This document shows positions 13,430 to 27,994 of a stretch of DNA of 48,751 nucleotides, piece by piece (the stretch's first letter is position 1; each line of letters opens with the position of its first letter). The DNA comes from Desulfobacteraceae bacterium (GTDB lineage Bacteria; Desulfobacterota; Desulfobacteria; Desulfobacterales; SURF-7). The notes below the pieces were generated by a model, which did not search any database, was not told where the DNA came from, and worked only from the letters and a program-made list of their open reading frames with translations. The stretch spans positions 1 through 48,751 of the forward strand of contig QZKS01000072.1 of assembly GCA_003599865.1 (NCBI GenBank). The letters are read 5' to 3'. A program made the translations under genes and the position numbers.

Positions 13430-13486
13430 TTTACGGAAGTTCAGACAACAACGATTATCGTTAACGGGAATATCGAGGTAAATATC

Positions 13487-13933
13487 ATGTCCGATTGGGA
13501 ACCGAAAATTATCGCGTTTTTTTGCAATTGGTGTACCTACGGCGCTGCCGACCTTGCCGGAGTCAGCCGCTTGCAGTATCCGCCCAATATCCGCGTCATC
13601 CGGGTGCCGTGCAGCGGCCGGATCAGCACGAAATTTATTCTTTCCGCATTCCGGGAGGGAGCTGACGGAGTCTGGGTATCCGGATGCCATCCAGGAGATT
13701 GCCACTATATTGAAGGGAACTACTATGCCAGGAAAAAATTTCTCCTGTTCAAAAATCTGATGGATCACATGGGAATCGAACCAGGCCGTCTCCATTTTGC
13801 ATGGATCTCCTCTGCAGAATCAACCAAGTTCCAGAAAATTGCAACAGAGGTGTGCGATTCCGTAAAGCAGGCAGGGCCATCCATACAGTTTAACAAAAGA
13901 GCCGGACTTCCGGCACAAGCGCATTTATCGTAA
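13487..13933 (+). CDS. mvhD: MvhD/FrhD-type hydrogenase delta subunit, copy 1
   Basis: The 148-residue protein carries the [2Fe-2S] ligands of MvhD: CNWC at 13-16, CSGR at about 43, and SGCHPGDCHY around 67-75. MvhD passes electrons between a partner oxidoreductase and the flavin of HdrA. All ligand positions are Cys, with no in-frame TGA, unlike the selenocysteine versions known in some anaerobes. The C-terminal ~20 residues are variable compared with copies 2 and 3. It lies between the HdrD-like gene and the truncated hdrA. Confidence 0.93.
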   Translation: MSDWEPKIIAFFCNWCTYGAADLAGVSRLQYPPNIRVIRVPCSGRISTKFILSAFREGADGVWVSGCHPGDCHYIEGNYYARKKFLLFKNLMDHMGIEPGRLHFAWISSAESTKFQKIATEVCDSVKQAGPSIQFNKRAGLPAQAHLS

Positions 13934-13959
13934 CGGTATATCGCACCGGAGGATTGAAG

Positions 13960-14346
13960 ATGACAAAACAAAATTCCGTTATCGGATCGGTAATGGTAGT
14001 CGGTGGAGGGGTTTCCGGCATCAAGGCGGCACTGGATCTGGCTGAATCCGGATATTATGTCTATGTGGTTGAAAAAACACCGGCCATCGGCGGCGTCATG
14101 TCCCAACTGGACAAGACTTTTCCGACTGCGGACTGTTCCATGTGCATACTGTCTCCCTATCTTGTGGAGACCGGCCGGCATCAGAATATAGAATTGATTA
14201 CCTACGCGGATGTTGAATCGGTGGAAGGGAACCCCGGAAATTTCCGGGTTAAGGTCAAAAAGAAAGCACGTTCCATCCGCCCGGAATTGTGCACCGGATG
14301 CCGGGCTTGTGTGGATGCATGCCCGGTAACCCAGCAGGCAGAATGA
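13960..14346 (+). CDS. Truncated HdrA paralogue (N-terminal FAD segment plus one 4Fe-4S motif)
   Basis: The ATG at 13960 follows CCGGAGGA. The 128 residues match only the N-terminus of the HdrA genes downstream: the Rossmann GGGVSGIKAALDLAESGYY, the QLDKTFPTADCSMCILSP block and one 4Fe-4S motif CTGCRACVDACP, then a TGA. Most of the FAD domain, the CCG-like motifs and the C-terminal ferredoxin are absent. The next gene repeats this segment almost word for word, so this is a partial tandem duplicate. It retains an intact ribosome site and frame and may be expressed, but it cannot do full HdrA chemistry alone. Confidence 0.8.
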   Translation: MTKQNSVIGSVMVVGGGVSGIKAALDLAESGYYVYVVEKTPAIGGVMSQLDKTFPTADCSMCILSPYLVETGRHQNIELITYADVESVEGNPGNFRVKVKKKARSIRPELCTGCRACVDACPVTQQAE

Positions 14347-14383
14347 TATCGGAATGAAACAGAGAACCAAAGGAGATTTTTTC

Positions 14384-17300
14384 ATGCCAACAGATTTGAC
14401 CGGCGCCGTTCTGATTGCCGGAGGCGGCATCACGGGCATCCAGTCTGCCCTGGATCTGGCCAACTCCGGTTACTATGTCTACATTGTGGAAAAGACCCCT
14501 TCCATCGGCGGCACCATGGCGCAATTGGACAAAACCTTTCCGACCAATGACTGCTCCATGTGCATCCTGTCTCCGAAACTGGTGGAGGTCGGGCGGCATA
14601 TGAATATTGAAATCATCACTCTTGCCGAAATACAGGAGGTTCGTGGCTCCGCAGGCAGCTTTGAAGTGGATGTTTTTCAAAAGGCCCGGTATGTCGACAT
14701 GAAAAAATGCATTGCCTGTGGAGCCTGCGTGGAAAAATGCCCCAAAAAAGTGGATGATGCATTCAATCTCAATCTGGTCAAACGAAAAGCCATCTATGTT
14801 CCGTATCCCCAGGCCGTTCCCCTGAAATACACCATTGATGCAGCAAACTGTCTGAAATTGACAAAAGACAAGTGCGGTAATTGTGAAAAGGTTTGCCCGG
14901 CAGGAGCGATTCAATTTGATGATCAGGATAAAAAGCGAACACTACGTGTGGGAGCCATGATCCTGGCACCTGGTTTTGAAACTTTTGATCCGTCCGGATT
15001 GGATATTTACGGTTACGGAACTTTGCCGAATGTTGTGACGGCCATTGAGTTTGAGCGTATCCTGAGTGCTTCCGGACCCTATGAAGGACATCTGAAAAGA
15101 CCTTCGGACAAAACCCAGCCGGAAAAAATTGCCTGGCTGCAATGCGTTGGATCAAGGAGTATCAGAGAAGATGCAAAACCATATTGTTCCGGTGTCTGCT
15201 GCATGTATGCCATCAAGGAAGCCGTCATTGCAAAAGAGCATTCAGACCGGGAGCTGGATACCGCCATCTTTTTCATGGACATGAGAACCCATGGCAAGGA
15301 TTTTGAAAAAACATTTGAACGTGCCAAAAATGAAAGCCATGTCCGGTTTATCCGTTCACGGGTTCATTCCATTGAAGCCATTCAGGGTTCAGATGACCTC
15401 AAACTCATGTATATAGATGATGAGGGGAAGGTGACTTCTGAAATTTTTAATATGGTGGTATTGTCAGTTGGAATGGACATATCCGAAGGCAGCCAAAACC
15501 TTGCAGCAAAACTTGGGGTAGAGCTGAATTCAGACGGCTTTGCAGAAACAGGATGTTACACCCCGGTCAGTACATCCCGCCCGGGCATTTACGTGAGCGG
15601 CGTGTTCAGCGGGCCCAAGGACATCCCTCAGTCGGTCATGGAGGCAAGCGCTGCGGCCGCAGCCTCATCCACACTGCTTTCGGCCGCCAGAAACACGCTG
15701 ACTCAAAAAAGAAGCGTTCCGGAAGAAGCGGACATCACCGGCCAGGAGCCCCGGATCGGGGTTTTTGTCTGCCATTGCGGGTCCAACATCGGGGGTGTGG
15801 TGGATGTTCCGGCAGTCAAGGAACATGCGGAAAAGCTTCCCTGCGTTGTATTTTCCACCCACAGTCTGTTTACATGCAGTCAGGACTCCCAGGAAAACAT
15901 CAAAAAAGCCATCAAGGAGCACCACCTGAATCGTGTGGTCATCGCCTCCTGTTCGCCCAGAACCCATGAAGCGCTTTTTCAGGAAACCATTGAGGAGGCC
16001 GGAATCAATCCGTATCTGCTGGAGTTCACCAATATCCGGGATCAGAATTCCTGGGTTCATATGCATAACCCCGAGGCTGCCACAAGAAAAGCCAAAGACC
16101 TGGTGCAGATGGCCGTTGCCAAGGTTGCTCTCCTGGAACCGCTCAAAAGACTTCAGATCCAGGTCAACCCAGGCGCATTGATCATCGGCGGCGGGATTGC
16201 CGGCATGGCTACCGCCCTGAATCTGGCAGAGCAGGGATTCCACTCCTATCTGGTTGAAAAAGACGATGCCCTGGGAGGAAATGCGCGAAAGCACTCCCTG
16301 AAAACCTGGAAGGGAGACATGGTTGCCGATTATCTTTCCGATCTGACGGACAAGGTAAACCGGAATCCGAATATTGAAGTGTTATTGTCCTCAAATATTA
16401 CCGCTGTTGACGGTTTTGTGGGCAATTTCAGCACAACCGTTGCTTCAGGCGGCAATCAGCAAATCATCGAACATGGTGCCGTGGTTCTGGCAACCGGAGG
16501 CCGTGCCTCCGAACCGGACGAATACCTGCTCGGAAAGAGCGAAAGGGTGTTCAAATGGCGAGAACTCACGAATTTGCTGGAAAAAGATCCGGAACGTCTT
16601 GAACAGACCGGCACCGTGGCATTCATCCAGTGTGTGGGAAGCCGGGAACCGGATCATCCCTATTGCTCGAAAATCTGCTGCACCGCATCCATCCGGAGTG
16701 CCATCTTTTTGAAGGAGAAAAAACCTTCCATGAGGATTTTTATTCTGTATCGGGATATTCGTACATACGGCTTGCGGGAGGCGCTGTATCTAAAGGCCAG
16801 AGATCTCGGCATCATTTTTATCAGATATAACCGGAATGAAAAACCAGTTGTGGAAAGGGATGGCGAAATCGGTCTTCTGCTGACCGTTACGGATCACATC
16901 CTGAAGCGTTCTGTTCAGCTGAGGATCGACTATTTGAGCCTGGCAACCGCGATTGTTCCGGATTATCAAAAAGACATTGCACAGATGCTGAAAGTACCGG
17001 GTAATGGTGAAGGCTTTTATATGGAAGCCCACATGAAACTCAGGCCGGTGGATTTTGCAACGGACGGCATTTATCTGTGCGGTCTGGCCCATTATCCAAA
17101 ACCGGTTGAAGAAACCATTGCCCAGGCCCAGGCCGCAGCCGCCCGCGCGGCATGCCTTCTGGTAAAACCGTTTATTGATATTGAACCTATAGTGTCCAAT
17201 GTGGACGCGGAAAAATGCATCGGCTGCGGCTTGTGTGAAAGCTCTTGCAGTTTTGGAGCGATCCGGCTGAAGGCCATTGCCGGTGTGGGCTATCGTGCGG

Positions 17301-17431
17301 AAAATTTTTCAGCCTTGTGCAAGGGCTGCGGGGTCTGCGCTGCCGCCTGTCCGCAGCAGGCAATTGATATGAAACATTTCAGCGACAGACAGCTCATGGC
17401 GGCGATCCGGGCCGGGATTGTCGCTGCATGA
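14384..17431 (+). CDS. hdrA: HdrA-type flavin electron-bifurcating subunit, long (double) form, copy 1
   Basis: The ATG at 14384 is chosen because AAAGGAGA lies just ahead; an upstream in-frame ATG at 14354 has no such site. The 1015-residue protein is two HdrA-like halves. The first has FAD motif GGGITGIQ, 4Fe-4S ligands at Cys 109/112/115/119, a second cluster region with an altered first spacing (CLKLTKDKCGNCEKVC) and CVGSR...YCSGVCC. The second starts near residue 457 with RIGVFVCHCG, has another FAD motif GGGIAGMA near 600 and CVGSREP...CSKICC. Two C-terminal ferredoxin motifs end it (CIGCGLCESSC, CKGCGVCAAACP). HdrA FAD splits electron pairs between ferredoxin and a second acceptor. Confidence 0.93.
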   Translation: MPTDLTGAVLIAGGGITGIQSALDLANSGYYVYIVEKTPSIGGTMAQLDKTFPTNDCSMCILSPKLVEVGRHMNIEIITLAEIQEVRGSAGSFEVDVFQKARYVDMKKCIACGACVEKCPKKVDDAFNLNLVKRKAIYVPYPQAVPLKYTIDAANCLKLTKDKCGNCEKVCPAGAIQFDDQDKKRTLRVGAMILAPGFETFDPSGLDIYGYGTLPNVVTAIEFERILSASGPYEGHLKRPSDKTQPEKIAWLQCVGSRSIREDAKPYCSGVCCMYAIKEAVIAKEHSDRELDTAIFFMDMRTHGKDFEKTFERAKNESHVRFIRSRVHSIEAIQGSDDLKLMYIDDEGKVTSEIFNMVVLSVGMDISEGSQNLAAKLGVELNSDGFAETGCYTPVSTSRPGIYVSGVFSGPKDIPQSVMEASAAAAASSTLLSAARNTLTQKRSVPEEADITGQEPRIGVFVCHCGSNIGGVVDVPAVKEHAEKLPCVVFSTHSLFTCSQDSQENIKKAIKEHHLNRVVIASCSPRTHEALFQETIEEAGINPYLLEFTNIRDQNSWVHMHNPEAATRKAKDLVQMAVAKVALLEPLKRLQIQVNPGALIIGGGIAGMATALNLAEQGFHSYLVEKDDALGGNARKHSLKTWKGDMVADYLSDLTDKVNRNPNIEVLLSSNITAVDGFVGNFSTTVASGGNQQIIEHGAVVLATGGRASEPDEYLLGKSERVFKWRELTNLLEKDPERLEQTGTVAFIQCVGSREPDHPYCSKICCTASIRSAIFLKEKKPSMRIFILYRDIRTYGLREALYLKARDLGIIFIRYNRNEKPVVERDGEIGLLLTVTDHILKRSVQLRIDYLSLATAIVPDYQKDIAQMLKVPGNGEGFYMEAHMKLRPVDFATDGIYLCGLAHYPKPVEETIAQAQAAAARAACLLVKPFIDIEPIVSNVDAEKCIGCGLCESSCSFGAIRLKAIAGVGYRAENFSALCKGCGVCAAACPQQAIDMKHFSDRQLMAAIRAGIVAA

Positions 17432-17473
17432 AAGCTGCCTGAAGAGACAGAATGATCGTAAGGAGTAACTTGA

Positions 17474-18232
17474 ATGAATCCATCTTTTGAGCCGAAAATA
17501 CTGGCCTTTTTATGCAACTGGTGTTCCTATGCCGGTGCGGATCTGGCAGGTATCTCCCGTATTCAGTATCCGCCGAATATCCGCGTGATCCGTACCATGT
17601 GCTCCGGACGGGTGGACCCCCTTTTTATCGTGAATGCGCTGGATGAAGGTTTTGATGGCGTATATGTGGGAGGGTGCCATATCGGAGACTGCCACTATCA
17701 GGATGGCAATCTCTATACCCTGAAGCGATTCGATGCCCTTCAGAAACTGATGGATCTGACCGGTATCAGCCGGAACCGGGTTCATTTGAAATGGGCCAGT
17801 GCAGCCGAGGCACAAATTTTCGCTGACAATATCACATACGTAACCCAGGTGATACGTGATCTGGGGCCTTTTGAGAGAGATTCCCGTCTGCTCCCGTTAC
17901 AGGCCATGAAAAGGACCCTGACCAGCCAGAGATACCGCTGGCTGGTTGGCATTGACCGGAAGATCACCGGGGATAAAAATGTGTATAACGAAAAAACACC
18001 TGTTCCATTGTTTGAAAAGGTTTTTTCCGAAGCACTTCAGGGGGAATACCAGAAAGCACTGGTAGTTGAATGCACAAAAGACAATCCATTATCGGTTCAT
18101 GAAATTTCAGGCCGGACCGGACTCCCGCCCTATACCATCTCCTGCCGTCTGAATGAGCTTTCACAGGATGGTATCACGGGAATTGGCAGGGTGGATGGCA
18201 GGACTCCGAAATTTATCAGCCGGGCAGCATAA
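17474..18232 (+). CDS. mvhD: MvhD-type subunit with C-terminal winged-helix-like extension, copy 2
   Basis: The first ~140 of 252 residues are a normal MvhD with CNWC, MCSGR and GGCHIGDCHYQDGN, so [2Fe-2S] binding is expected. The remaining ~110 residues are absent from copies 1 and 3. They end in a helix-turn-helix-like stretch (SVHEISGRTGLPPYTISCRL, then NELSQDGI) followed by GRVDGRTPKF, the shape of a winged helix. An AAGGAG site precedes the ATG. The gene sits between two long hdrA genes. The extension could be regulatory or a subunit-docking domain; neither is proven. Confidence 0.88.
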   Translation: MNPSFEPKILAFLCNWCSYAGADLAGISRIQYPPNIRVIRTMCSGRVDPLFIVNALDEGFDGVYVGGCHIGDCHYQDGNLYTLKRFDALQKLMDLTGISRNRVHLKWASAAEAQIFADNITYVTQVIRDLGPFERDSRLLPLQAMKRTLTSQRYRWLVGIDRKITGDKNVYNEKTPVPLFEKVFSEALQGEYQKALVVECTKDNPLSVHEISGRTGLPPYTISCRLNELSQDGITGIGRVDGRTPKFISRAA

Positions 18233-18253
18233 GGAAAATATAAAGGAATCAGA

Positions 18254-21200
18254 ATGACTCTTGCAGAAAAAAGGAAACTCGGTTCTGTTCTGGTGGTTGG
18301 CGCCGGCGTGGCCGGTATTCAGGCATCACTGGATATGGCAAACTCCGGGTTTTATGTTCATCTGGTGGATCGTTCACCCAGCGTTGGCGGAATCATGGCG
18401 CAACTGGACAAGACCTTTCCGACCAATGACTGCGCCATGTGTGTTATCTCTCCTTTTTTGGTAGAGGTCGGGAGGCACCTCAACATCCATGTCATTCCCT
18501 GTAGTGAACTCGAACGTCTGGATGGAGAAAAAGGTGATTTCAAGGCAACCATTGTCAACCATCCACGTTATATTGATACGGAAAAATGTACCGGATGCGG
18601 CCAGTGCCGTCAGGTATGTCCGGTGGTTGCCATCAATGAATTCAATTGCGGTCTGGATCTGCGAAAAGCGACTTATATTCCATATCCCCAGGCGGTCCCT
18701 CTGGCCTATGCCATTGACCGGAATGCCTGTATCGGATGCGGCATGTGTGAAAAAGTATGCTTGGCCGGTGCTGTGACTTATGATGATAAAACGAAAATCA
18801 CCGAGCTTGAAGTTGGGTCGGTGATTCTGGCGCCGGGCGGGGAGATGTATGATCCTAAAGAAGCGGATTCCTGGTCATACTCCCATCCCAATGTGGTAAC
18901 CAGTCTGGAGTTTGAACGGATATTGAGCGCATCCGGACCCTACCGCGGACATCTGATGAGACCCTATGACCGAGAAGAACCGGAGAAAATCGCCTGGCTG
19001 CAATGTGTGGGTTCCCGCGACATCAACCGGGCAAAGAACAGCCACTGTTCCTCCGTATGCTGCATGTACGCCATCAAGCAGACGATGATCGCAAAGGAAC
19101 ACAGCGCGCATGAGCTGGATACAGCCATCTTCTATATGGACATGCGCACCTATGGAAAGGATTTTGACAAATATTATAGCCGGGCAAAAGAGGAGAGGGG
19201 AGTCCGTTTTATCCGCTCCCGTGTCCATAGCATTGAACCGGTGGAGAATGGAAACCTCAGGCTGAGATACGTCAAGGAATCCGGCGAATCCGTTGAAGAA
19301 ATTTTTAACATGGTTGTTCTGTCTGTTGGATTCAAACCATCTTCGGGTGTCGAGACGATTGCAAAAAAACTGGGACTCACGCTGAATGAGCAACATTTTT
19401 TCCGGACAGGAGACATCCGGCCGGTCGCCACCAGCCGGGACGGTGTTTATGTGTGCGGCGTCTCCCACGGACCAAAGGATATCCCCCAATCGGTCATGGA
19501 GGCATCCGCAGCCGCTTCCGTGGCCACCAGCGATCTTTCCAGTGCCAGGTGGAGTGCTACACGGACTCCGCAACTTCCGCCGGAAACGGATTTTTCGAAA
19601 ATGGTTCCGCGGATCGGGGTTTTTGTATGCAATTGCGGCATCAACATCGGTGGCGTTGCGGATGTTCCGGCGATCCGGGAGTATGCAAAAACCCTTCCCC
19701 ATGTTGTGCATGTAGAGGACAACCTGTTTACATGCAGTCAGGATACACAGGAAAGGATGAAGCAGGTCATCCGGGAAAAGAATATCAACCGGGTCGTCGT
19801 GGCATCCTGTTCACCCAGAACCCATGAACCTCTGTTTCAGGAAACCATCCGGGAAGCGGGGCTGAACAAGTATCTGTTTGAAATGGCCAACATCCGGGAT
19901 CAGAATACCTGGGTTCATAAAAACAATCCGGATCTGGCAACAGCCAAAGCCAAAGATCTGGTGCGGATGGCGGTTGCCAAGGCAGAATATATTGAACCGC
20001 TTCACCAGGTGAAGCTGGATGTCAAACCCGCTGTATTGATCGTCGGTGGCGGCGTGGCCGGTATGGAGGCTGCCCTGGGTGCTGCTGAGCAGGGATTTCA
20101 GGCGTATCTGGTGGAAAAAACCGATACCCTGGGCGGAATGGCCCATCAATTACGGAAAACCTGGCAGGGAGAAGATATTCCGGCATATCTCGAACGACTG
20201 ATCAAAGATGTAACCAACCATTCCAAGATCCAAATTTTTTTAAACACCAAACCGGTGCATTTTACCGGTACCATCGGAAGCTTTACCACTACCCTGAATG
20301 ATATCCATACCGGTAATCCGAACGGAATCATTGAGCATGGGGCTGCCATTCTCGCTACCGGAGGCAGGGAATACCGTCCGGAAGGTTATCAGTATGGAAA
20401 CCGTCCGGATGTCATGACCCATCTGGATCTGGATCAAGCCATGAAAGACACTCCGGCGACGGTCATGAATGCCGACACAATTGTTTTTATCCAGTGCGTG
20501 GGGTCCAGAAACAGTGATCGGCCCTATTGCAGCCGGGTCTGCTGTACCCACACCCTGAAAAACGCTATTGAACTGAAAAAAATCAAACCGGGGATGAACA
20601 TCTTTGTGATGTATCGGGATGTCCGTTCCTATGGTTTCCGGGAATCCCTGTACCAGGAGGCCAGAGCCCTGGGCGTTCATTTCATCCGTTTTGACCCGGA
20701 AAATCCGCCGCAGATGAATATTGCTGAAAATAATATTCTGACAATAACTGTGACGGATCATATATTGCAGCGTCCGATCGTGATTTCTCCGGATCTTGTG
20801 GTACTGGCTGCTGCGGTTCTCCCCAATGAAAACAAGGAACTGTTTGAATTGTTCAAGGTGCCTGTCAATGCCGAAGGATTCCTGGTGGAAGCGCATGCCA
20901 AACTGCGTCCGGTGGATTTCGGGTCCGAAGGCTTGTTTCTGGCCGGTCTGGCACATTATCCGAAATCCATTGATGAAAGCATTGCCCAGGCAAGGGCAGC
21001 CGTATCAAGAGCCGTAACCATTGTTTCCAAGGACGGAATCATGGTCGGAGGCGTGGTGGCTGCCGTTAATCCGGATCGATGCGCGGTCTGCTGTACCTGT
21101 GTCCGGGCCTGTCCCTACGGCATACCGTTTATCGGCAATGAAGGACATGCGGTGATCCAGCAGGCGGAATGCCATGGATGCGGTGTGTGTGTTTCGGAGT

Positions 21201-21295
21201 GTCCGGGAAAGGCCATTACATTGCAGCATTTTACAGATCAGCAGTTGATCGCCAAAACACGGGCGCTGTTTTATCAGCCGGCTATGAATGAATAG
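18254..21295 (+). CDS. hdrA: HdrA-type flavin electron-bifurcating subunit, long (double) form, copy 2
   Basis: The 1013-residue protein is collinear with the upstream long HdrA. It shows FAD motif GAGVAGIQ, two complete 4Fe-4S motifs (CTGCGQCRQVCP near 112 and CIGCGMCEKVC near 160) and CVGSRD...CSSVCCMYAIK. The second half begins with RIGVFVCNCG near residue 453, with a second FAD motif GGGVAGME near 595. The C-terminal ferredoxin ligands start CAVCCTCVRACP and CHGCGVCVSECP. Unlike copy 1, its internal second cluster has normal spacing. It lies 22 nt after mvhD copy 2 and 13 nt before copy 3, clearly in one operon. Confidence 0.94.
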   Translation: MTLAEKRKLGSVLVVGAGVAGIQASLDMANSGFYVHLVDRSPSVGGIMAQLDKTFPTNDCAMCVISPFLVEVGRHLNIHVIPCSELERLDGEKGDFKATIVNHPRYIDTEKCTGCGQCRQVCPVVAINEFNCGLDLRKATYIPYPQAVPLAYAIDRNACIGCGMCEKVCLAGAVTYDDKTKITELEVGSVILAPGGEMYDPKEADSWSYSHPNVVTSLEFERILSASGPYRGHLMRPYDREEPEKIAWLQCVGSRDINRAKNSHCSSVCCMYAIKQTMIAKEHSAHELDTAIFYMDMRTYGKDFDKYYSRAKEERGVRFIRSRVHSIEPVENGNLRLRYVKESGESVEEIFNMVVLSVGFKPSSGVETIAKKLGLTLNEQHFFRTGDIRPVATSRDGVYVCGVSHGPKDIPQSVMEASAAASVATSDLSSARWSATRTPQLPPETDFSKMVPRIGVFVCNCGINIGGVADVPAIREYAKTLPHVVHVEDNLFTCSQDTQERMKQVIREKNINRVVVASCSPRTHEPLFQETIREAGLNKYLFEMANIRDQNTWVHKNNPDLATAKAKDLVRMAVAKAEYIEPLHQVKLDVKPAVLIVGGGVAGMEAALGAAEQGFQAYLVEKTDTLGGMAHQLRKTWQGEDIPAYLERLIKDVTNHSKIQIFLNTKPVHFTGTIGSFTTTLNDIHTGNPNGIIEHGAAILATGGREYRPEGYQYGNRPDVMTHLDLDQAMKDTPATVMNADTIVFIQCVGSRNSDRPYCSRVCCTHTLKNAIELKKIKPGMNIFVMYRDVRSYGFRESLYQEARALGVHFIRFDPENPPQMNIAENNILTITVTDHILQRPIVISPDLVVLAAAVLPNENKELFELFKVPVNAEGFLVEAHAKLRPVDFGSEGLFLAGLAHYPKSIDESIAQARAAVSRAVTIVSKDGIMVGGVVAAVNPDRCAVCCTCVRACPYGIPFIGNEGHAVIQQAECHGCGVCVSECPGKAITLQHFTDQQLIAKTRALFYQPAMNE

Positions 21296-21307
21296 GAGGA
21301 AAACAAG

Positions 21308-21730
21308 GTGAGCCAAGATTTTGAACCGCAGATTCTCGCATTCTGCTGCAAGTATTGTGCATATGCGGCAGCCGATCTGGCCGGGTCCATGCGCCTCAAC
21401 TATCCGCCCAATATCAAGGTGATTCAGGTCCCCTGCACCGGCCGGGTGGATATTATATTTTTGCTCAGAGCTATTGAAGAGGGCGCAGATGGTGTCTATG
21501 TGGCAGGTTGTCTGGAAGGGGAGTGTCATTTTGTCGGGGGAAACCTGAGAGCCCGGAAACGGGTGAACTATGTAAAAAAAACACTGGCTGAACTTGGAAT
21601 CGAGCCGGAGCGGGTGGAGATGTTCAACCTGTCATCGGCCATGGGTCCCAGGTTTGCTGAAATTGCAATTGAGATGACGGATCGGATTAAAAAACTGGGG
21701 CCGACTCCGGTATGTCGGTTAGCCGGTTAG
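21308..21730 (+). CDS. mvhD: MvhD/FrhD-type hydrogenase delta subunit, copy 3
   Basis: A GTG start follows AGGAGG by 9 nt. The 140-residue protein has CKYC, PCTGR and AGCLEGECHF, the expected [2Fe-2S] ligands, and a full-length MvhD fold. It sits directly before metV-metF, as MvhD does in acetogen MetFV-Hdr-Mvh clusters, so this copy is the best candidate to contact MetV. Its 3' end is a small tandem repeat (GCCGGTTA twice, then GCCGGTTG) leading into an inverted repeat GGTTGACCGGCCAACC at 21731-21748. Confidence 0.93.
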   Translation: MSQDFEPQILAFCCKYCAYAAADLAGSMRLNYPPNIKVIQVPCTGRVDIIFLLRAIEEGADGVYVAGCLEGECHFVGGNLRARKRVNYVKKTLAELGIEPERVEMFNLSSAMGPRFAEIAIEMTDRIKKLGPTPVCRLAG

Positions 21731-21769
21731 CCGGTTGACCGGCCAACCGTCCCACACAGGAGGAAAAAT

Positions 21770-22438
21770 ATGATCGTTGCGGATCGAAAGCCGCTGGTTG
21801 AAATCCAGGAGATGGTGGCAAACAGCAGGAAAATTCTGGTGATCGGATGCAAAGGCTGCGTTACGGTATGTAATGTCGGCGGATTAAAAGAGGCTGAGAT
21901 CCTTGCGTCATCATTGAGAATCGGCAGAAACAAAAATGGAAAACCCATGGAGATAGATGAAACTGTTCTTGAGAGACAGTGTGATCCGGAATACATTGCA
22001 CAGCTTAAAGATAAGGTGGGGAATTATGATGCGGTAATCTCCATGGCCTGCGGCGTCGGGCCGCAGTTTTTGTCCGAAGCCTATCCTGAACAGAAATTTT
22101 TTCCGGCAGTCAATACCAAATTTTTTGGTGGAGCTGTACAGCACGGTATCTGGGAAGAACGGTGCGCAGGCTGCGGTACCTGCGTTATTCATCACTATGA
22201 CGGACTCTGTCCCATTGCACGATGTTCCAAAAGCCTTCAGCATGGTCCCTGCGGCGGCAGTTCCAAAGGAAAATGTGAAATTGCAAATGATGTTGTCTGT
22301 ATCTGGGATCTAATTGTCCGGAAAAAAATGGAACAGGGTCGTCTGGATGACCTGCGGTTGTTTCAGCCGGCCAAGGACTGGCGGACGGCCAGAGATGGCG
22401 GACCCAGGAGAAGTATACGGGAGGAGCTGGCATCATGA
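21770..22438 (+). CDS. metV: MetV, zinc/iron-sulfur partner of methylene-THF reductase
   Basis: The 222-residue protein has the MetV pattern of scattered cysteines: GCKGCVTVCNVGG near the N-terminus, MACGVG in the middle, and a C-terminal cluster region with CAGCGTC, CPIARCSKSLQHGPCGG and GKCEI. In acetogens MetV links MetF to the MvhD-HdrA electron chain. AGGAGG stands before the ATG, and the stop overlaps the metF start as ATGA. Its presence identifies the enzyme as a MetFV-type methylene-THF reductase rather than a lone MetF. Confidence 0.93.
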   Translation: MIVADRKPLVEIQEMVANSRKILVIGCKGCVTVCNVGGLKEAEILASSLRIGRNKNGKPMEIDETVLERQCDPEYIAQLKDKVGNYDAVISMACGVGPQFLSEAYPEQKFFPAVNTKFFGGAVQHGIWEERCAGCGTCVIHHYDGLCPIARCSKSLQHGPCGGSSKGKCEIANDVVCIWDLIVRKKMEQGRLDDLRLFQPAKDWRTARDGGPRRSIREELAS

Positions 22439-23367
22439 GTGAACTGAAATCGGGAAGCAATCTGGAAAAAGTGTTGAAAGCCGGACACTTCGCGTTTACC
22501 GGTGAGTGCGGGCCGCCCAGAGGAGCCAATATCGATCACCTGAAGGAAAAATATGAACCCTTAAAAGGCATGGTGGATGCGGTGAACGTCACGGACAATC
22601 AGACTGCCGTGGTCCGCATGTCCAGCATGGCCGCTTCCGCCCTTCTGGTACAGGCCGGTCTCGAGCCCAATTACCAGATGGTATGCCGGGACCGCAATCG
22701 CCTGGCCATGATGAGCGATATTCTCGGAGCCTATTCTTTGGGTATCCGCAACATGCTCTGTCTGTCCGGGGATCATCAGAAGTTCGGGGATCATCCCCAG
22801 TCCAAAAACGTCTATGACATTGATTCCATGCAGTTGATTTCCATGGTGAAAAAAATGCGGGACGAGGGGAAATTCCTGAATGAAGACGAAATCGATGTGC
22901 CTCCGAAAATGTTTATCGGCGCTGCATCCAATCCGTTCGGAGATCCTTTTGAATTCCGGATATACCGTCTGGCAAACAAAATCGCAGCAGGAGCGGATTT
23001 TATCCAGACCCAGTGTATCTACAATATGCCCAAATTCCGGGAGTTCATTAAAAAGGCAGTGGATATGGGCTTGACGGAAAAGTGCTTCCTGCTGGCTGGT
23101 GTGACCCCCATGAAAAGTGTGGGTATGGCCAAATACATGAAAAGCCGTGTCCCGGGCATGGATGTTCCGGATGAGATCATCAAACGTCTTCAGGGTGTGG
23201 ACAAGAAAGAAGTGGCGGACGAAGGGATCAGAATCGCCTGTGAGCAGATCGAAGAATTCAAGGAAATGAAGGGAGTGGCAGGAGTCCATCTGATGGCCAT
23301 TGAATGGGAACACCGCGTGCCGGAAATCGCTGAAAGAGCCGGTGTACTTCCCAGGCCTGTAATATAA
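22435..23367 (+). CDS. metF: Methylenetetrahydrofolate reductase
   Basis: The 310-residue TIM-barrel flavoprotein shows family features: FTGECGPPRGAN with the catalytic Glu, VNVTDNQTAVVRMSS, and CLSGDHQKFGDHP for flavin/folate binding. It interconverts methylene-THF and methyl-THF in the methyl branch of the Wood-Ljungdahl pathway. Overlap with metV and the Hdr/Mvh genes upstream suggest that its electrons pass through MetV and an HdrA flavin. This would allow bifurcation or, in an oxidative organism, confurcation. It is the last gene of the cluster. Confidence 0.95.
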   Translation: MSELKSGSNLEKVLKAGHFAFTGECGPPRGANIDHLKEKYEPLKGMVDAVNVTDNQTAVVRMSSMAASALLVQAGLEPNYQMVCRDRNRLAMMSDILGAYSLGIRNMLCLSGDHQKFGDHPQSKNVYDIDSMQLISMVKKMRDEGKFLNEDEIDVPPKMFIGAASNPFGDPFEFRIYRLANKIAAGADFIQTQCIYNMPKFREFIKKAVDMGLTEKCFLLAGVTPMKSVGMAKYMKSRVPGMDVPDEIIKRLQGVDKKEVADEGIRIACEQIEEFKEMKGVAGVHLMAIEWEHRVPEIAERAGVLPRPVI

Positions 23368-23391
23368 ACTTTTATGATCAGGAGAAATGAA

Positions 23392-23703
23392 ATGTTTACC
23401 GTAACGGAGACCGCACAATCCGAGATTGCCGACTATTTCAAAAATAAAGAAAAAATGCCGATCCGTATTTTTGTATCCCAGGGATGCGGTGGAAGCCAGG
23501 TCGGCCTGGCCCTGGATGACAAAAAAAATACGGATATGGTGTACCGGGTGGGGGATGTGGAATACCTTGTGGATCGGGATCTGTTAAAACAGGCCCAACC
23601 CATCGTGATCGATTTTCTGAAAAACGGTTTCAGTATTTCTTCCAATTTGAAACTGAGCAGCGGCTGTTCCAGCTGCGGAACTTCCGGAACCTGCTGTTCA
23701 TGA
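23392..23703 (+). CDS. HesB/IscA-like small iron-sulfur protein
   Basis: The ATG at 23392 is preferred because AGGAG ends 7 nt before it; an in-frame upstream ATG at 23374 lacks one. The 103-residue protein resembles A-type Fe-S carriers (FTVTETAQSEIADYF, then GCGGSQVGLALDD) but ends in a cysteine-rich tail GCSSCGTSGTCCS instead of the canonical CGCGSSF. HesB-like proteins with such tails occur in anaerobes, some as selenoproteins; here the residues are Cys. It lies between metF and the tRNA-Sec gene. Role in cluster assembly for the Hdr proteins is plausible but unproven. Confidence 0.82.
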   Translation: MFTVTETAQSEIADYFKNKEKMPIRIFVSQGCGGSQVGLALDDKKNTDMVYRVGDVEYLVDRDLLKQAQPIVIDFLKNGFSISSNLKLSSGCSSCGTSGTCCS

Positions 23704-23736: not shown

Positions 23737-23828
23737 GAGGGTAATGGTGCTGGGCGCCCCACGGTCTTCAAAACCGTCGGCTCCGCGTGAAAAACGGAGA
23801 GGAGGTTCGATTCCCCTTGCCCTCTCCA
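23737..23828 (+). tRNA. selC: Selenocysteine tRNA (anticodon UCA)
   Basis: The 92-nt gene has an 8-bp acceptor stem (GAGGGTAA with TTGCCCTC), an anticodon arm ACGGT-CTTCAAA-ACCGT with TCA at 23768-23770, a long variable arm (CTCCG...CGGAG), a TTCGATT T-loop and an encoded CCA. These are hallmarks of tRNA-Sec. Oddities read by eye: U at the discriminator position, one A-C mismatch in the T stem, and one U-C mismatch in the best six-pair D stem. It is immediately followed by selB. Confidence 0.92.
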
Positions 23829-23855: not shown

Positions 23856-25769
23856 ATGACCAAATTTATTACCATAGGCGTTGCCGGTCATACCGGCCAT
23901 GGAAAAACAACACTGGTCCGATCCCTCACCGGAATGCCTGCCGATACAATGGAAGGTGAAAAACAGCACGGGGCCGGCAGGGAACCCGGGGTGTTTCCGC
24001 TTTCCCTGGAGATTGATATCCAGGCTGCCCTGATGGATATCCCCGGACATATCCGGTATCTCAAGAATACGATTCGGGGTCTTTGCTCTGTGGATATGGC
24101 TATCCTGGTTATCGCCGCAGATGACGGGATCATGCCCCAGACACGGGAACATTTGAACGTGTTCACCTGTCTCGGGATCAATCATGGTTTTATCGTACTG
24201 AGCAGGACCTACCTGGTTGACGAAGAACTTCTGGAACTTGCGGAACTGGAAATTCAGGAAGCGGTTGAAGGGACATTGTTTGAAGGCAAGCCGGTCATAC
24301 CTGTTTCAATGAATGAATCCGAAGGTCCGGAACGGATTCGAACCGCCATTCAAAATGAGCTGCAATCACTTCAGGGGAAATCCGTGGATTCACCTTTCCG
24401 CATGTGGGTGGATCGGGTGAAAAGCATTGCAGGTTTCGGTACGGTGGCTTGCGGAACTATATGTTCCGGACAAGTTTCCGTTGATGACGGGATTCGGATT
24501 CTGCCGGAAAACCGTGAAACCAGGGCAAGAACCCTTGAAGTTCATCATCGGAAGGTATCCCAGGCCTTTGCAGGTCAGCGGGTCGGCATCAATCTTCCCA
24601 AAGTATCCATACAAGATGTCCGTCCCGGTATGATGCTTTCCGCGTCATCTCCGAAAGATTTCCATCGGTTTTTCAATGTGGATCTGCATGCTTTTCGGCC
24701 TGTTCAAAACGGGCAGCGTGTCAGACTGCATCTGGGAACCGCGTCCGTCAATGCCATGGTAGTGCTGATGGAAACGGCGAATCTGAACCCAGGAGACACG
24801 GGCTTAGCGCAGCTTCGCCTTGACGATCCGATCCCGGCGATTCCCCATGACCGGTTCATCATTTGTTCCCTGAACCTGCATACGGTGATGGGAGGCGGAA
24901 CAGTGCTGGAAATCTCGGAATATAAATTCAAAAGGTCAAGACTGCCCGGAACACTTCCGTATCTGAAGGCGGTCAGGAATCGGGATATCCCGGCATTGAT
25001 TGCCGGCTTTTGCAGACAGCGGTTCAAGAGGCCGGTTACGGAATCCGAAATAACGGAATATTCGGGGCTTCCGGTCCGGGACATCCAGTCCGGGATCCAA
25101 CGAATGATAGAACAGGATGAGCTTCTCGCCCTTTCCGGTGAACAGTATTATCTCATGGATGAATATCGGAAACTCTATCAAGAGCTTCCAAAGATCATCA
25201 GCCGCATCCTGACCAGTGATCCGTTTAAAGGAAAAACCAACAAGGAAGCCATCCGGAAGCATTTCACCTATGGTTATGATGAACTGCTGATCAAAACCCT
25301 GCTGCAGGAACTCCATAATCGGAAAATGATATTCCTGAAAGATGGAATGATATCCGCTCCGATGGAGACATTGACCTTCAGCAGGCCGCAGAAACAGATG
25401 CTGGATTCCCTGCTGCGATACTCGGATGAGGTCGGGATACCGTTTTCCATCGGCGGATTCTGCCGGATCATCAAAAAGGGAACCAGAAAGGAAGAGGCCC
25501 AGGCATACCTTGATTTTCTTCAATTTCAGGGAAGGCTGATCCGTTTGAATGATGACTGCTATATCTCTTCCTCCATGATGGAAGAGATTAAGAAAAAGGT
25601 TTCGCAGGCAATACGGGAAAAGGGCAGTATTTCCGTCACGGATAGCAAGGATATTTTTGGATACGGAAGAACAAAGGGTGCGCCGGTGCTGGAATATCTG
25701 GATGAGATCGGCTTTACTTCCCGGAAGGGGGATGAACGGATGTTATGGATCAAATCCGGGCAGGAATAG
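23856..25769 (+). CDS. selB: SelB, selenocysteine-specific elongation factor with divergent G domain
   Basis: The 637-residue length, the elongation-factor domains II-III (DRVKSIAGFGTVACGT, VHHRKVSQAFAGQRVGINL) and the C-terminal winged-helix repeats from about residue 370 identify SelB, which brings Sec-tRNA to UGA codons at SECIS hairpins. Its position after the tRNA-Sec gene supports this. The G domain is unusual. G1 is GHTGHGKTT (11-19) instead of the usual GHxDHGKT; the switch-I RGITI segment is replaced by HGAGREPG (38-45); G3 DIPGH is kept (61-65). G4, normally (N/T)KxD, reads SRTY (116-119). Either it uses an altered nucleotide mechanism or it is a specialised or decaying paralogue. 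The ATG at 23856 has no strong ribosome site. Confidence 0.88.
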   Translation: MTKFITIGVAGHTGHGKTTLVRSLTGMPADTMEGEKQHGAGREPGVFPLSLEIDIQAALMDIPGHIRYLKNTIRGLCSVDMAILVIAADDGIMPQTREHLNVFTCLGINHGFIVLSRTYLVDEELLELAELEIQEAVEGTLFEGKPVIPVSMNESEGPERIRTAIQNELQSLQGKSVDSPFRMWVDRVKSIAGFGTVACGTICSGQVSVDDGIRILPENRETRARTLEVHHRKVSQAFAGQRVGINLPKVSIQDVRPGMMLSASSPKDFHRFFNVDLHAFRPVQNGQRVRLHLGTASVNAMVVLMETANLNPGDTGLAQLRLDDPIPAIPHDRFIICSLNLHTVMGGGTVLEISEYKFKRSRLPGTLPYLKAVRNRDIPALIAGFCRQRFKRPVTESEITEYSGLPVRDIQSGIQRMIEQDELLALSGEQYYLMDEYRKLYQELPKIISRILTSDPFKGKTNKEAIRKHFTYGYDELLIKTLLQELHNRKMIFLKDGMISAPMETLTFSRPQKQMLDSLLRYSDEVGIPFSIGGFCRIIKKGTRKEEAQAYLDFLQFQGRLIRLNDDCYISSSMMEEIKKKVSQAIREKGSISVTDSKDIFGYGRTKGAPVLEYLDEIGFTSRKGDERMLWIKSGQE

Positions 25770-25848: not shown

Positions 25849-26079
25849 TTGGAAATACAGGTGTTTTTTATGGAACTGATATTTACATGCCCGGAAACCA
25901 GTCAGGTGTTCTATACCGGAAATTTCGAAGTCATCGACAACCATGGCATCAAAACGGATACGGCAGGGAATAAGATACTGGAAGCAAAGGTTGCTCTGGT
26001 CGACCCATGCCCGTTTTGCGGCAGGATGCATGTTTATCATGCCAATGAATTGGCCTGTCCGCTTTCCGGGCGTTTTTGA
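25849..26079 (+). CDS. Small conserved-looking cysteine protein of unknown function
   Basis: This frame of up to 76 codons starts with TTG at 25849, 12 nt after AAAGGAGG. A weaker alternative is ATG at 25870, giving MELIFTCPETSQ. The product has two cysteine pairs, TCPETSQ and PCPFCGRMH, plus ELACPLSG, a zinc-ribbon-like layout. It sits between selB and yedE, so it may belong to the selenium block. No family is recognised. Confidence 0.6.
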   Translation: MEIQVFFMELIFTCPETSQVFYTGNFEVIDNHGIKTDTAGNKILEAKVALVDPCPFCGRMHVYHANELACPLSGRF

Positions 26080-26114
26080 ATATCTCATATCAAATAAGAG
26101 GGAGGATGAAACAG

Positions 26115-27206
26115 ATGCGGGGAAAAAATATTTTTGCTTCGCGCGGGGGCATCATCGGCGTCGGCGCGTTGATCGGCGTACTGGCAGCAGTGCTGCAAAA
26201 ACTGGGCAATCCCGGCAATATGGGAATTTGCGTGGCCTGTTTTGAACGGGATATTGCCGGTGCAATCGGCTTTCATCGGGCAGCAGTGGTTCAGTATATC
26301 AGACCTGAACTCATCGGATTTGTGATCGGATCCATGATCGCCGCATACCTGTTCAAGGAATACCGTCCCCGGCTGGGGTCGGCGCCGATTGTTCGTTTCA
26401 TCTTAGGCGTATTCGCCATGATCGGCGCCCTGATGTTTTTAGGGTGTCCGTGGCGCGCCATGCTGCGTCTGGCCGGAGGTGATGGAAACGCCATACTGGG
26501 CATATCCGGCTTGACATTCGGCATATGGATCGGAACCTTGTTTTTAAAAAATGGCTACAATCTGGGACGGACGCAGTCTTCCCATCATACCACCGGATGG
26601 ATGCTGCCCATGGTCATGTTTGGCCTTTTGATATTGATGCTTCTTTTTCCGCAGATTGGGGGGCAGGAAAAAAGCGGTGTTCTGTTTTACAGTATCAAAG
26701 GACCAGGTTCCATGCATGTTTCGTTATGGGTCGCCCTGGCCATTGGCACTATCATCGGTTTTCTGGCCCAGCGAAGCCGCTTCTGCACCATGGGCGCCAT
26801 TCGTGACTTGCTGCTTTTTAAACAGATCCACCTGTTCTCCGGATTCATCAGCATGGTGGTATTCGCGTTTATTGCCAATCTGATTCTCAGCCAATTCAAA
26901 CCGGGTTTTGACGGTCAGCCGGTTGCCCACACCATGCATATCTGGAATTTCGTTGGTATGACCCTGGCCGGGCTTTCTTTTGCCTTGGCCGGAGGATGTC
27001 CCGGGCGTCAACTTTTTCTGTCCGGGGAAGGTGACGGTGATGCAGCGGTATTTGTCATGGGAATGATCGTCGGGGCGGCTGTATCCCATAATTTCGGCCT
27101 CGCGAGTTCCCCCAACGGCGTGGGGGAGTATGGTATCGCAGGCGTTATTGTCGGTCTGGCGGTCTGTCTGTTTATCGGGTTTACGATGAGAAAAAGGATT
27201 GTCTAA
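26115..27206 (+). CDS. yedE: YedE-family putative selenium transporter
   Basis: The ATG at 26115 lies 9 nt after GGAGG; upstream in-frame starts at 26076 and 26106 fit worse. The 363-residue protein has about nine to ten hydrophobic helices. The repeated YeeE/YedE motifs are visible: NMGICVACFERDI, FLGCPWRAMLRLAGG, FLAQRSRFCTMGAIRD and LAGGCPGRQLFLSGEGDGDA, with conserved cysteines facing a membrane channel. The family moves sulfur or selenium compounds, and this branch co-occurs with selenium genes. The next gene, 11 nt on, is a YedF/TusA-like protein, which supports selenium as cargo. Confidence 0.92.
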   Translation: MRGKNIFASRGGIIGVGALIGVLAAVLQKLGNPGNMGICVACFERDIAGAIGFHRAAVVQYIRPELIGFVIGSMIAAYLFKEYRPRLGSAPIVRFILGVFAMIGALMFLGCPWRAMLRLAGGDGNAILGISGLTFGIWIGTLFLKNGYNLGRTQSSHHTTGWMLPMVMFGLLILMLLFPQIGGQEKSGVLFYSIKGPGSMHVSLWVALAIGTIIGFLAQRSRFCTMGAIRDLLLFKQIHLFSGFISMVVFAFIANLILSQFKPGFDGQPVAHTMHIWNFVGMTLAGLSFALAGGCPGRQLFLSGEGDGDAAVFVMGMIVGAAVSHNFGLASSPNGVGEYGIAGVIVGLAVCLFIGFTMRKRIV

Positions 27207-27217
27207 GGAGGTATGAA

Positions 27218-27436
27218 ATGGCCGTTACTGTTGATGCCAGAGGGCTTTCCTGTCCTCAGCCGGTGATTATGACATTGGACGAAATCAAAAAGGGTAATGA
27301 AAAAGCCATTATCGTTCTGGTGGACACGGATACATCCAAGGAAAACGTCATGCGGGCTGCGGAAAGTCAGGGGTGCCGGATCAATGATGTTGCACCTGAG
27401 GGTGAAGGGTACCGGATTTCTATAACAAAAGGCTAA
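27218..27436 (+). CDS. yedF: YedF/TusA (SirA-like) sulfur/selenium carrier
   Basis: The 72-residue protein is a single TusA-fold domain with the active-site motif DARGLSCPQPVI, where the Cys carries persulfide or perselenide. AAGGAGG precedes the ATG. It is coupled to yedE upstream and is 3 nt from the DUF3343 gene, the usual neighbours in selenium metabolism clusters. It lacks the C-terminal domain of longer YedF proteins. Confidence 0.92.
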   Translation: MAVTVDARGLSCPQPVIMTLDEIKKGNEKAIIVLVDTDTSKENVMRAAESQGCRINDVAPEGEGYRISITKG

Positions 27437-27439
27437 CGA

Positions 27440-27994
27440 ATGTTCGGATTTTTAAAGAAGAAAAAATCTGAAAGCATGACGACAAATTCCGCCGCTTCTG
27501 TTGGTCGCGGCTTTCTGGTGTTTGAAAACACCAGCGAAGTCATTCAGGCTGAAAATCTTTTAGCCGGTTCCGGCTGGACGGTTCGTGTCATGGGGCCTCC
27601 TCCGGAAATTCAAACCGGATGCGATCTGGTGATTGAGTTTCCCTTAATCGAAGAGTTGAATATTGTCCGGGAACTGGAAAATGCCCATATCCCGCCGATT
27701 CAGGTGGTGCCGGTCACGGCACCGCTGCTTACACCGGTTAATCTTTTTCATACAACGGATTTCGGCCTATACCTGATGGTCCGGGCGGCGAATATGAAAA
27801 TCACCATTGATAAAAAAGATCTTAGAATCGTCAATATCTCCGGCGGAGGATGTCCGGATGTGCCTTACCTGGCCCGGGAAATGGTGGGTAAAACCCTGAT
27901 GGACGTACCTCAACCCAGGACCCTTGGCCACACATTATGCGGTTACGCTCTTGAACTGGCCTACCAGGAATTGTGCAAACAATGCTCGCTGTAG
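27440..27994 (+). CDS. DUF3343-domain protein of the selenium cluster
   Basis: The 184-residue protein opens with a basic leader (MFGFLKKKKS), then the DUF3343 segment GFLVFENTSEVIQAENLLAG...VRVMGPPPEIQTGCDL, which folds as a small ferredoxin-like domain. The C-terminal ~80 residues (VNISGGGCPDVPYLAREMVG) are an added domain with a conserved-looking GGGCPDVP. DUF3343 occurs beside YedE/YedF in selenium-dependent molybdenum hydroxylase systems. Its reaction is unknown. The next gene overlaps its 3' end. Confidence 0.82.
   Translation: MFGFLKKKKSESMTTNSAASVGRGFLVFENTSEVIQAENLLAGSGWTVRVMGPPPEIQTGCDLVIEFPLIEELNIVRELENAHIPPIQVVPVTAPLLTPVNLFHTTDFGLYLMVRAANMKITIDKKDLRIVNISGGGCPDVPYLAREMVGKTLMDVPQPRTLGHTLCGYALELAYQELCKQCSL

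Follow-up and report, generated by a model that had tools for sequence, protein, structure and literature searches.

A selC*-linked second SelB with an eroded GTPase domain in a Desulfobacteraceae bacterium

Results

A SelB paralogue lies directly downstream of a selC*-type tRNA

We analysed a stretch of 48,751 nucleotides (nt) from a Desulfobacteraceae bacterium (GenBank assembly GCA_003599865.1, contig QZKS01000072.1), hereafter the window, which is an entire 48.8-kb contig of a 5.0-Mb genome that is 97% complete. It encodes a paralogue of SelB, the elongation factor for selenocysteine (Sec), behind a Sec-like tRNA gene. We refer to the pair as selC* and SelB*, the names of a previously described system, and to the GTPase domain of SelB* as the G domain. 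The features of the pair are as follows.

23737..23828, + strand: selC*-type, Sec-like tRNA with UCA anticodon (23768-23770); ARAGORN tRNA-SeC, RF01852 56.7 bits
23856..25769, + strand: SelB* elongation-factor paralogue with an eroded G domain, 637 amino acids; TIGR00475, AlphaFold2 model, Protein Data Bank match
23886..23912, + strand: P-loop GHTGHGKTT, residues 11-19, with Asp replaced by Gly, and Lys and Thr retained
23967..23990, + strand: switch I, HGAGREPG instead of RG(I/L/M)(T/S)IE; translation, alignment, model
24036..24050, + strand: G3/switch II DIPGH, residues 61-65, retained including the catalytic His
24201..24212, + strand: G4, SRTY instead of (S/T)KxD; translation, alignment
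24372..24920, + strand: domains II and III, expected to bind tRNA and amino acid; Pfam PF03144, PF25461
24921..25745, + strand: C-terminal winged helices, the end expected to bind the Sec insertion sequence (SECIS); Pfam PF09107

The frame is open throughout 23856-25766 (637 amino acids), and the NCBIfam selB model TIGR00475 matches residues 5-630 with 279.9 bits (cut-off 242.25), as expected of a full-length SelB. Pfam identifies an EF-Tu G domain, domain II, a SelB beta-barrel and a SelB winged helix, the last (PF09107) at 43.4 bits against a gathering threshold of 23.2. A preliminary description had drawn attention to 23856-24260, which covers most of the G domain but only part of the gene and leaves out the partner tRNA. 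Its reading of the motifs, with GHTGHGKTT as the P-loop, a switch I lacking RGITI and (N/T)KxD replaced by SRTY, is borne out by the translation. SelB carries K(x)RGITIE(x)G at the site of residues 36-45, here KQHGAGREPG, and (L/T)TKxD at that of residues 115-119, here LSRTY. Among the hallmarks of a translational GTPase, DxPGH and, in the predicted model, the three-domain EF-Tu fold are present, and the P-loop GHxDHGKT, the switch-I RGxTI and the G4 (N/T)KxD are missing. Sequencing error was considered and rejected: switch I differs along its whole length, relatives in other genomes carry the same P-loop and switch-I erosion, and the G4 differences fall in two separate codons (AGG, TAC), so that a single frameshift does not explain them.

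The tRNA ends 27 nt before the start of selB*. Its acceptor stem has 8 base pairs (23737-23744 with 23817-23824), all eight formed; the T-stem, GG[A]GG/CCCC, carries a bulged A (23801-23805/23813-23816); the variable arm is long, CCA is encoded, and position 73 is U (23825). The selC* tRNA-Cys (Mukai et al. 2017, as summarized in a review, PMC7609411) is described as having U73, a modified 8/4 structure, an A51a bulge and a GCA or UCA anticodon, and the window tRNA has U73 and the 8/4 structure with the bulged T-stem A. According to the same review, a second selB (selB*) lies downstream of selC* in Syntrophobacterales and Desulfobacterales, with a second cysteinyl-tRNA synthetase (CysRS) in Desulfobacterales (PMC7609411).

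A canonical SelB, SelA and tRNA-Sec are encoded elsewhere in the genome. The second, canonical selB that the preliminary description proposed to look for is present on contig 23 and has GHIDHGKT, RGITI, DVPGH and TKND; selA occurs once, on contig 4, and contig 11 carries a canonical tRNA-Sec (RF01852 74 bits, 8-bp acceptor, G73). These parts of the Sec system are therefore available without the window genes. SelB* of the window is 30% identical to this canonical SelB and 33-47% identical to 30 other SelB* sequences (excluding L111, in which a stretch of bases is unknown), and three trees place it among the selC*-linked SelBs and separate from canonical SelB. The gene is very probably a SelB*, the second SelB of the genome, which forms a pair with the selC*-type tRNA next to it, and the pair belongs to the already described selC*/selB* system. 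This upholds the earlier suggestion of a specialised paralogue with a tRNA of its own at its side.

SelB* genes are patchily distributed and keep a U73 tRNA

Close relatives of the window SelB* (E <= 1e-100) occur in 33 of 389 genomes of the order, and none was found at this threshold in three genomes of the same genus (G001-G003). In 29 of the 33, a selC*-type tRNA precedes the gene by no more than 700 nt, with a UCA anticodon in 28 and GCA in one; none was found within that distance in L094, L096, L102, where a contig end cuts the gene, or L109. All 29 tRNAs have U73 and form at least seven of eight acceptor pairs, and compensating changes are seen when their acceptor sequences are compared; for these counts the tRNA start was picked for best pairing. 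The nine order members with an eroded SelB* all have such a tRNA (U73 in 9/9, 7-8 acceptor pairs). A class-level search returned 31 matching genomes, all already in the order-level set. A phylum search added 27 loci, comprising two eroded and 11 other SelB*, four SelBs beside GCA tRNAs and ten canonical SelBs, as well as six further matches without a locus.

The amino-acid pocket was compared in columns taken from an alignment with the SelBs of Escherichia coli and Aquifex aeolicus, with our own numbering. Site counts show Asp186, Arg187 and Arg242 of domains II-III retained in the window. The E. coli Tyr42 column has Phe in 23/23 canonical SelBs of the order and Ile or Val in 21/24 intact SelB*; the window has Val. 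In the Arg181 column, Arg stands in 23/23 canonical SelBs and Gln in 20/24 intact SelB*. We infer that these columns correspond to Phe53 and His230 of the human Sec pocket (PMC5059743). The change in the SelB* pocket would fit a different amino acid. In Pfam terms the preliminary description was right to call domains II-III and the winged helices normal; within the pocket, the residue contributed by domain I (Val46) departs from the Phe of the canonical SelBs.

Five further SelBs (L265, L266, L267, L270 and L117) have the canonical Phe/Arg/Arg pocket. Each adjoins a Sec-like tRNA that combines U73 with the Cys anticodon GCA, an arrangement that may be ancestral for the selC*/SelB* system. L092 (6004-10191) carries a tandem pair of selC*-selB* units, the second selB* being frame-broken near the junction of the G domain and domain II. 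L087, L090 and L092, one family, have DVPGQ, with Gln for the catalytic His (window residue 65), and otherwise intact motifs and tRNAs.

Switch I and the P-loop Asp have been lost repeatedly

Canonical SelBs of the order do not vary in the motif columns at issue: 23/23 have the P-loop Asp, the R-G-I-T-I of switch I, and the Lys and Asp of G4. The majority of SelB* also retain GHVDHGKT, RG(L/M)SIE and (S/T)KxD. Eleven SelB*, nine from the order and two from outside it, keep only 1-2 of the five positions R-G-(I/L/M)-(T/S)-I, against 4-5 in the other sequences. We call these eroded; the class was first assigned by eye, and the later count of the five positions agreed on all 11. Neither L102, cut by a contig end, nor L109, which scores 2 and has an unrelated N-terminus up to that point, was counted as eroded. 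Substitutions standard throughout the lineage, which the preliminary description had named as grounds for refutation, are not what is seen: the 24 non-eroded SelB* of the order retain most motifs.

The P-loop Asp is gone in 9/11 eroded SelB* (7/9 within the order) and in 0/39 other sequences with a letter at that position, a contrast that is not significant on independent pairs, only two of which are supported. Among intact SelB* it is present in 22/24, the exceptions being a contig-cut sequence and L109, where the column reads Asn in one alignment. P-loop Lys and Thr are retained in 11/11 eroded sequences, and DxPGH in 9/11, with DVPAN in the other two (L113/L114). G4 Lys and Asp are both present in 24/24 intact SelB*, 23/23 canonical SelBs and 9/11 eroded SelB*; L264 has Arg for Lys. 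The window is the only one of the 11 without a Ser or Thr in switch I and the only one to have lost both G4 Lys and Asp, which makes it the extreme case among eroded SelB*. Its substitutions are more than chance drift, the same columns being invariant in the canonical SelBs.

To place the eroded sequences, we used trees built without the G domain. The window and five eroded relatives form a clade with an ultrafast bootstrap of 98 and a Shimodaira-Hasegawa-like approximate likelihood ratio test (SH-aLRT) support of 95, and L113/L114 are placed elsewhere with good support. A tree with all 11 eroded sequences (quick method) needs four changes, two of them forced by well-supported branches; a tree with nine (careful method) needs two, both forced. 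A single origin was therefore rejected, and switch-I loss appears from these trees to have arisen more than once, with the exact number uncertain because L108 is unplaced and several eroded sequences sit on long branches. Both trees left out L118 (canonical), and the 11-sequence tree left out the ten canonical SelBs from outside the order. The two pieces of the frame-broken second copy in L092 were left out of the trees, and L119, a 94-residue end fragment, out of all scripted alignments; L095, L102, L112, L115, L116 and L277 are partial.

Genome G661, which encodes one of the two eroded SelB* from outside the order, also encodes an intact SelB* (L281), near which no tRNA was found.

Erosion of the window SelB* is strongest in the P-loop and switch I

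In canonical SelBs the stretch spanning P-loop and switch I is the best conserved of those compared; mean pairwise identity is 84% there, 75% over the G domain as a whole and 70% over domain II. The corresponding values are 67%, 61% and 54% in intact SelB* and 38%, 50% and 57% in the six-member clade of the window; the winged helices (WH3-4) stand at 43% in intact SelB* and 45% in the clade. Compared with 20 intact SelB*, the window has a mean identity of 48% across P-loop and switch I, where eight intact examples have 66-75%, and 52% across the remaining G domain, where they have 55-64%. Erosion in the window thus appears strongest in the P-loop and switch I.

A pseudogene is not supported. 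The frame is open, and the whole-protein ratio of nonsynonymous to synonymous substitution rates (dN/dS) is 0.24 in the eroded pair L086/L088 and 0.17 in L113/L114, within the 0.16-0.27 of four intact pairs. These values come from other eroded pairs, no close relative of the window with the gene having been found. For P-loop and switch I alone, dN/dS is 0.42 (L086/L088) and 0.25 (L113/L114), against 0.17, 0.19, 0.35 and 0.20 in the four intact pairs; the counts there are too small for dN/dS alone to prove relaxed constraint.

An AlphaFold2 model from 33 sequences has a mean predicted local distance difference test score (pLDDT) of 88.1 and supersedes an earlier six-sequence model (74.6). Residues 31-39, in switch I, are the sole stretch below 50 besides the last five residues. 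The model matches A. aeolicus SelB (4zu9) with Z 44.6 over 578 residues at a root mean square deviation (rmsd) of 6.7 Å, and Foldseek also places 4zu9 first; GTP-form EF-Tu (1eft) is tied with it by Z (43.8; 351 residues at 2.1 Å), and E. coli SelB (5lzb) follows with Z 39.4. The predicted model contains no nucleotide and carries no information on its binding.

The Sec-like tRNA is probably a tRNA-Cys

Serylation of tRNA-Sec requires G73 (PMC5330540), which the window tRNA lacks. U73 is a major cysteine determinant, sufficient for cysteine identity of minihelices, and the GCA anticodon is the other (PMC9976931). The window tRNA is therefore probably not a tRNA-Sec, and its position 73 makes cysteine its likely amino acid. 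The term 'Sec elongation factor' in the preliminary description is accordingly probably wrong for this SelB, whose tRNA resembles the described selC* tRNA-Cys (PMC7609411).

A search of the genome with TIGR00435 gave one full-size CysRS and two weak cross-matches of ~41 bits. A fusion of CysK and CysRS was considered as a partner of SelB* and set aside, its match being order-wide (323/389 genomes); it is frequent in SelB* genomes and was not found in that of the window. In L144 (1486-3771), cysteine synthase (PALP) and CysRS share a single frame of ~760 amino acids.

The pair is flanked by selenium-related genes

The immediate neighbours of the pair are the following.

23374..23703, + strand: IscA/HesB family protein, upstream neighbour; NF038090 IscA_HesB_Se
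26076..27994, + strand: downstream neighbours, YedE putative selenium transporter, TusA/YedF-like protein and putative Se/S carrier

The downstream matches score 482.5 bits (TIGR04112), 66.5 bits (TusA, PF01206) and 70.4 bits (PF11823). Four of the window's five relatives in the clade (L086, L088, L097 and L104) likewise have an IscA_HesB_Se relative a short distance upstream. YedE was found near selB* in just one other locus searched (L087), and linkage to selenium transport is thus not a general feature of the family. The selenium-related cluster suits a selenium-dependent role and is no proof of one.

Upstream of this cluster, 13484-23367 contains three FlpD-like genes or domains (at 13484, 17486 and 21308), a 1013-residue HdrA-like frame identified by eye and a methylenetetrahydrofolate reductase with DUF5981, which suggests a methylenetetrahydrofolate reductase/Hdr-type complex. 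The FlpD/MvhD protein at 21308-21730, with an FCC or YCC (Q/R/K)(W/Y)C motif, has counterparts near selB* in lineages outside the order (L255/L283, L258, L259, L260/L284, L261, L262 and L264/L282) that are 52-62% identical to it; in L283 and L284 the gene sits between selC* and selB*. As a candidate UGA-containing target FlpD was rejected, there being no in-frame UGA in the matched parts of the copies near selC*/selB*.

Discussion

We consider it somewhat more probable than not that the window encodes a SelB*/tRNA-Cys pair with an altered nucleotide cycle. Under this explanation, SelB* would bring its cysteine-loaded tRNA to SECIS-marked UGA codons, or otherwise hold it, and selC*/SelB* would be a counterpart of the Sec system that works without selenium, a role that its placement among selenium-related genes fits. 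The protein would still handle its tRNA and a SECIS-like hairpin, and would still contact nucleotide and ribosome, with a cycle weaker and less guanine-selective than a normal GTP switch, because the P-loop Lys and Thr and the catalytic His stay while the switch-I Mg2+ ligand and the guanine-specifying residues are gone. In human eEFSec, UGA read-through suffers severely when the switch-I Thr or the switch-II Asp or His is mutated, and NKxD is the motif that recognizes the guanine base (PMC5059743). Taken by itself, a weakened, non-standard nucleotide cycle has, on these substitutions, about an even chance of being right; the altered nucleotide binding suggested in the preliminary description is plausible. 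More tentatively, SelB* of this and related lineages may have dispensed altogether with a normal GTP switch in handling its UGA-reading tRNA, and may recode or hold tRNA in a GTP-independent or non-guanine-specific way. That state would have evolved more than once through loss of switch I and, mostly, of the P-loop Asp, with the tRNA left intact.

Several observations weigh against the SelB*/tRNA-Cys explanation. CysRS also recognizes the anticodon GCA; that of the window tRNA is UCA. Searching the 97% complete genome with TIGR00435 (E <= 1e-8) revealed no second CysRS. Predicted tRNA-Sec genes without G73 have in part been taken as pseudogenes (PMC5330540). The window has Arg in the Arg181 pocket column, where most SelB* have Gln. 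None of the TGA-interrupted frames on the + strand of the window was judged a convincing selenoprotein, and no target mRNA was identified. In L113/L114, P-loop/switch I and the remaining G domain are equally diverged (42-46%). The window is a lone sequence on a long branch (1.05), which leaves room for lineage-specific decay. Finally, the two eroded SelB* from outside the order (L257/L280 in G661 and L264/L282 in G733) adjoin UCA tRNAs with the acceptor GAGGGCAG/CTGCCCTC and A73, a discriminator that is neither the U73 of tRNA-Cys nor the G73 of tRNA-Ser and tRNA-Sec. U73 is therefore no fixed partner of the eroded state, and these A73 tRNAs may be charged with a different amino acid or with none at all.

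The alternative that survives best, though we think it unlikely, is that SelB* is a GTP-independent RNA-binding protein, which holds its tRNA or SECIS-bearing mRNAs and regulates selenoprotein synthesis by selenium supply with no delivery. It would account for the loss of switch I, the P-loop Asp and the window G4 in a protein whose expected tRNA- and mRNA-binding domains stay, for the altered switch II of L113/L114, and for the IscA_HesB_Se and YedE/YedF/Se-carrier genes on either side. Retention of the P-loop Lys and Thr in every eroded sequence and of DxPGH in most would be odd if nucleotide and ribosome were irrelevant, and the complete G4 Lys and Asp of nine eroded sequences point the same way. 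Moreover, tRNA binding by SelB and EF-Tu requires an ordered switch I.

Decay of the G domain in this lineage, as selC*/SelB* grows dispensable beside the canonical Sec system, is less probable still. The system is patchy even within the genus, several eroded sequences have long branches, and none of the other ten eroded SelB* has lost as many motif residues as the window. Set against this are the 637-residue open frame, the low dN/dS of both eroded pairs, the fully paired tRNA acceptor and an erosion that is common to a well-supported clade of six. An ordinary Sec-delivering SelB with an unusual tRNA-Sec and quirks of no consequence, as the NCBIfam, ARAGORN and Rfam calls and the canonical-like Asp186, Arg187 and Arg242 would have it, is very improbable given U73 in place of G73 (PMC5330540), the canonical SelB, SelA and G73 tRNA-Sec elsewhere in the genome and the severe effect of the switch-I Thr mutation in eEFSec (PMC5059743).

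What is new here is the repeated loss of switch I, and mostly of the P-loop Asp, in selC*-linked SelB*. We found no description of SelB* G-domain loss in the literature searched, the scope of which did not include Mukai 2017 and Vargas-Rodriguez 2018, and one may be in print. Every factor known to us that delivers aminoacyl-tRNA relies on a switch I that is ordered and a pocket that selects guanine. Repeated loss of these GTPase parts, with tRNA and RNA-binding domains kept, amounts to a natural experiment for telling the elements required to deliver tRNA from those required for regulation linked to selenium, and it supplies concrete genes for asking what selC*/SelB* does, a question left open in the relevant section of the review (PMC7609411).

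With the selC*-selB* system of delta-proteobacteria, the window shares a Sec-like U73 tRNA, the bulged-A 8/4 structure, a UCA anticodon, a SelB downstream and a canonical Sec system besides. It differs in that its SelB* lacks switch I, the P-loop Asp and G4, a loss on which section 6 of the review is silent, in that TIGR00435 found no second CysRS (cysS*) in its genome, and in the 1:72 pair, which is G:C here and given as A:U for Desulfobacterales (PMC7609411). With bacterial SelB (4zu9, 5lzb) it has in common the domain order, the fold, the SelB-wing domain, the pocket Asp and Arg187 and Arg242; it departs from it in lacking RGxTI, the P-loop Asp and (N/T)KxD, in having Val for the pocket Phe/Tyr, and in its tRNA. 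The tRNA-ReC of Desulfotomaculum, ascribed to Vargas-Rodriguez et al. 2018, is said to be a Sec-like tRNA-Cys that recodes Sec UGA with cysteine through SelB. It was reportedly tested with an ordinary SelB, whereas the window has a dedicated, eroded SelB*.

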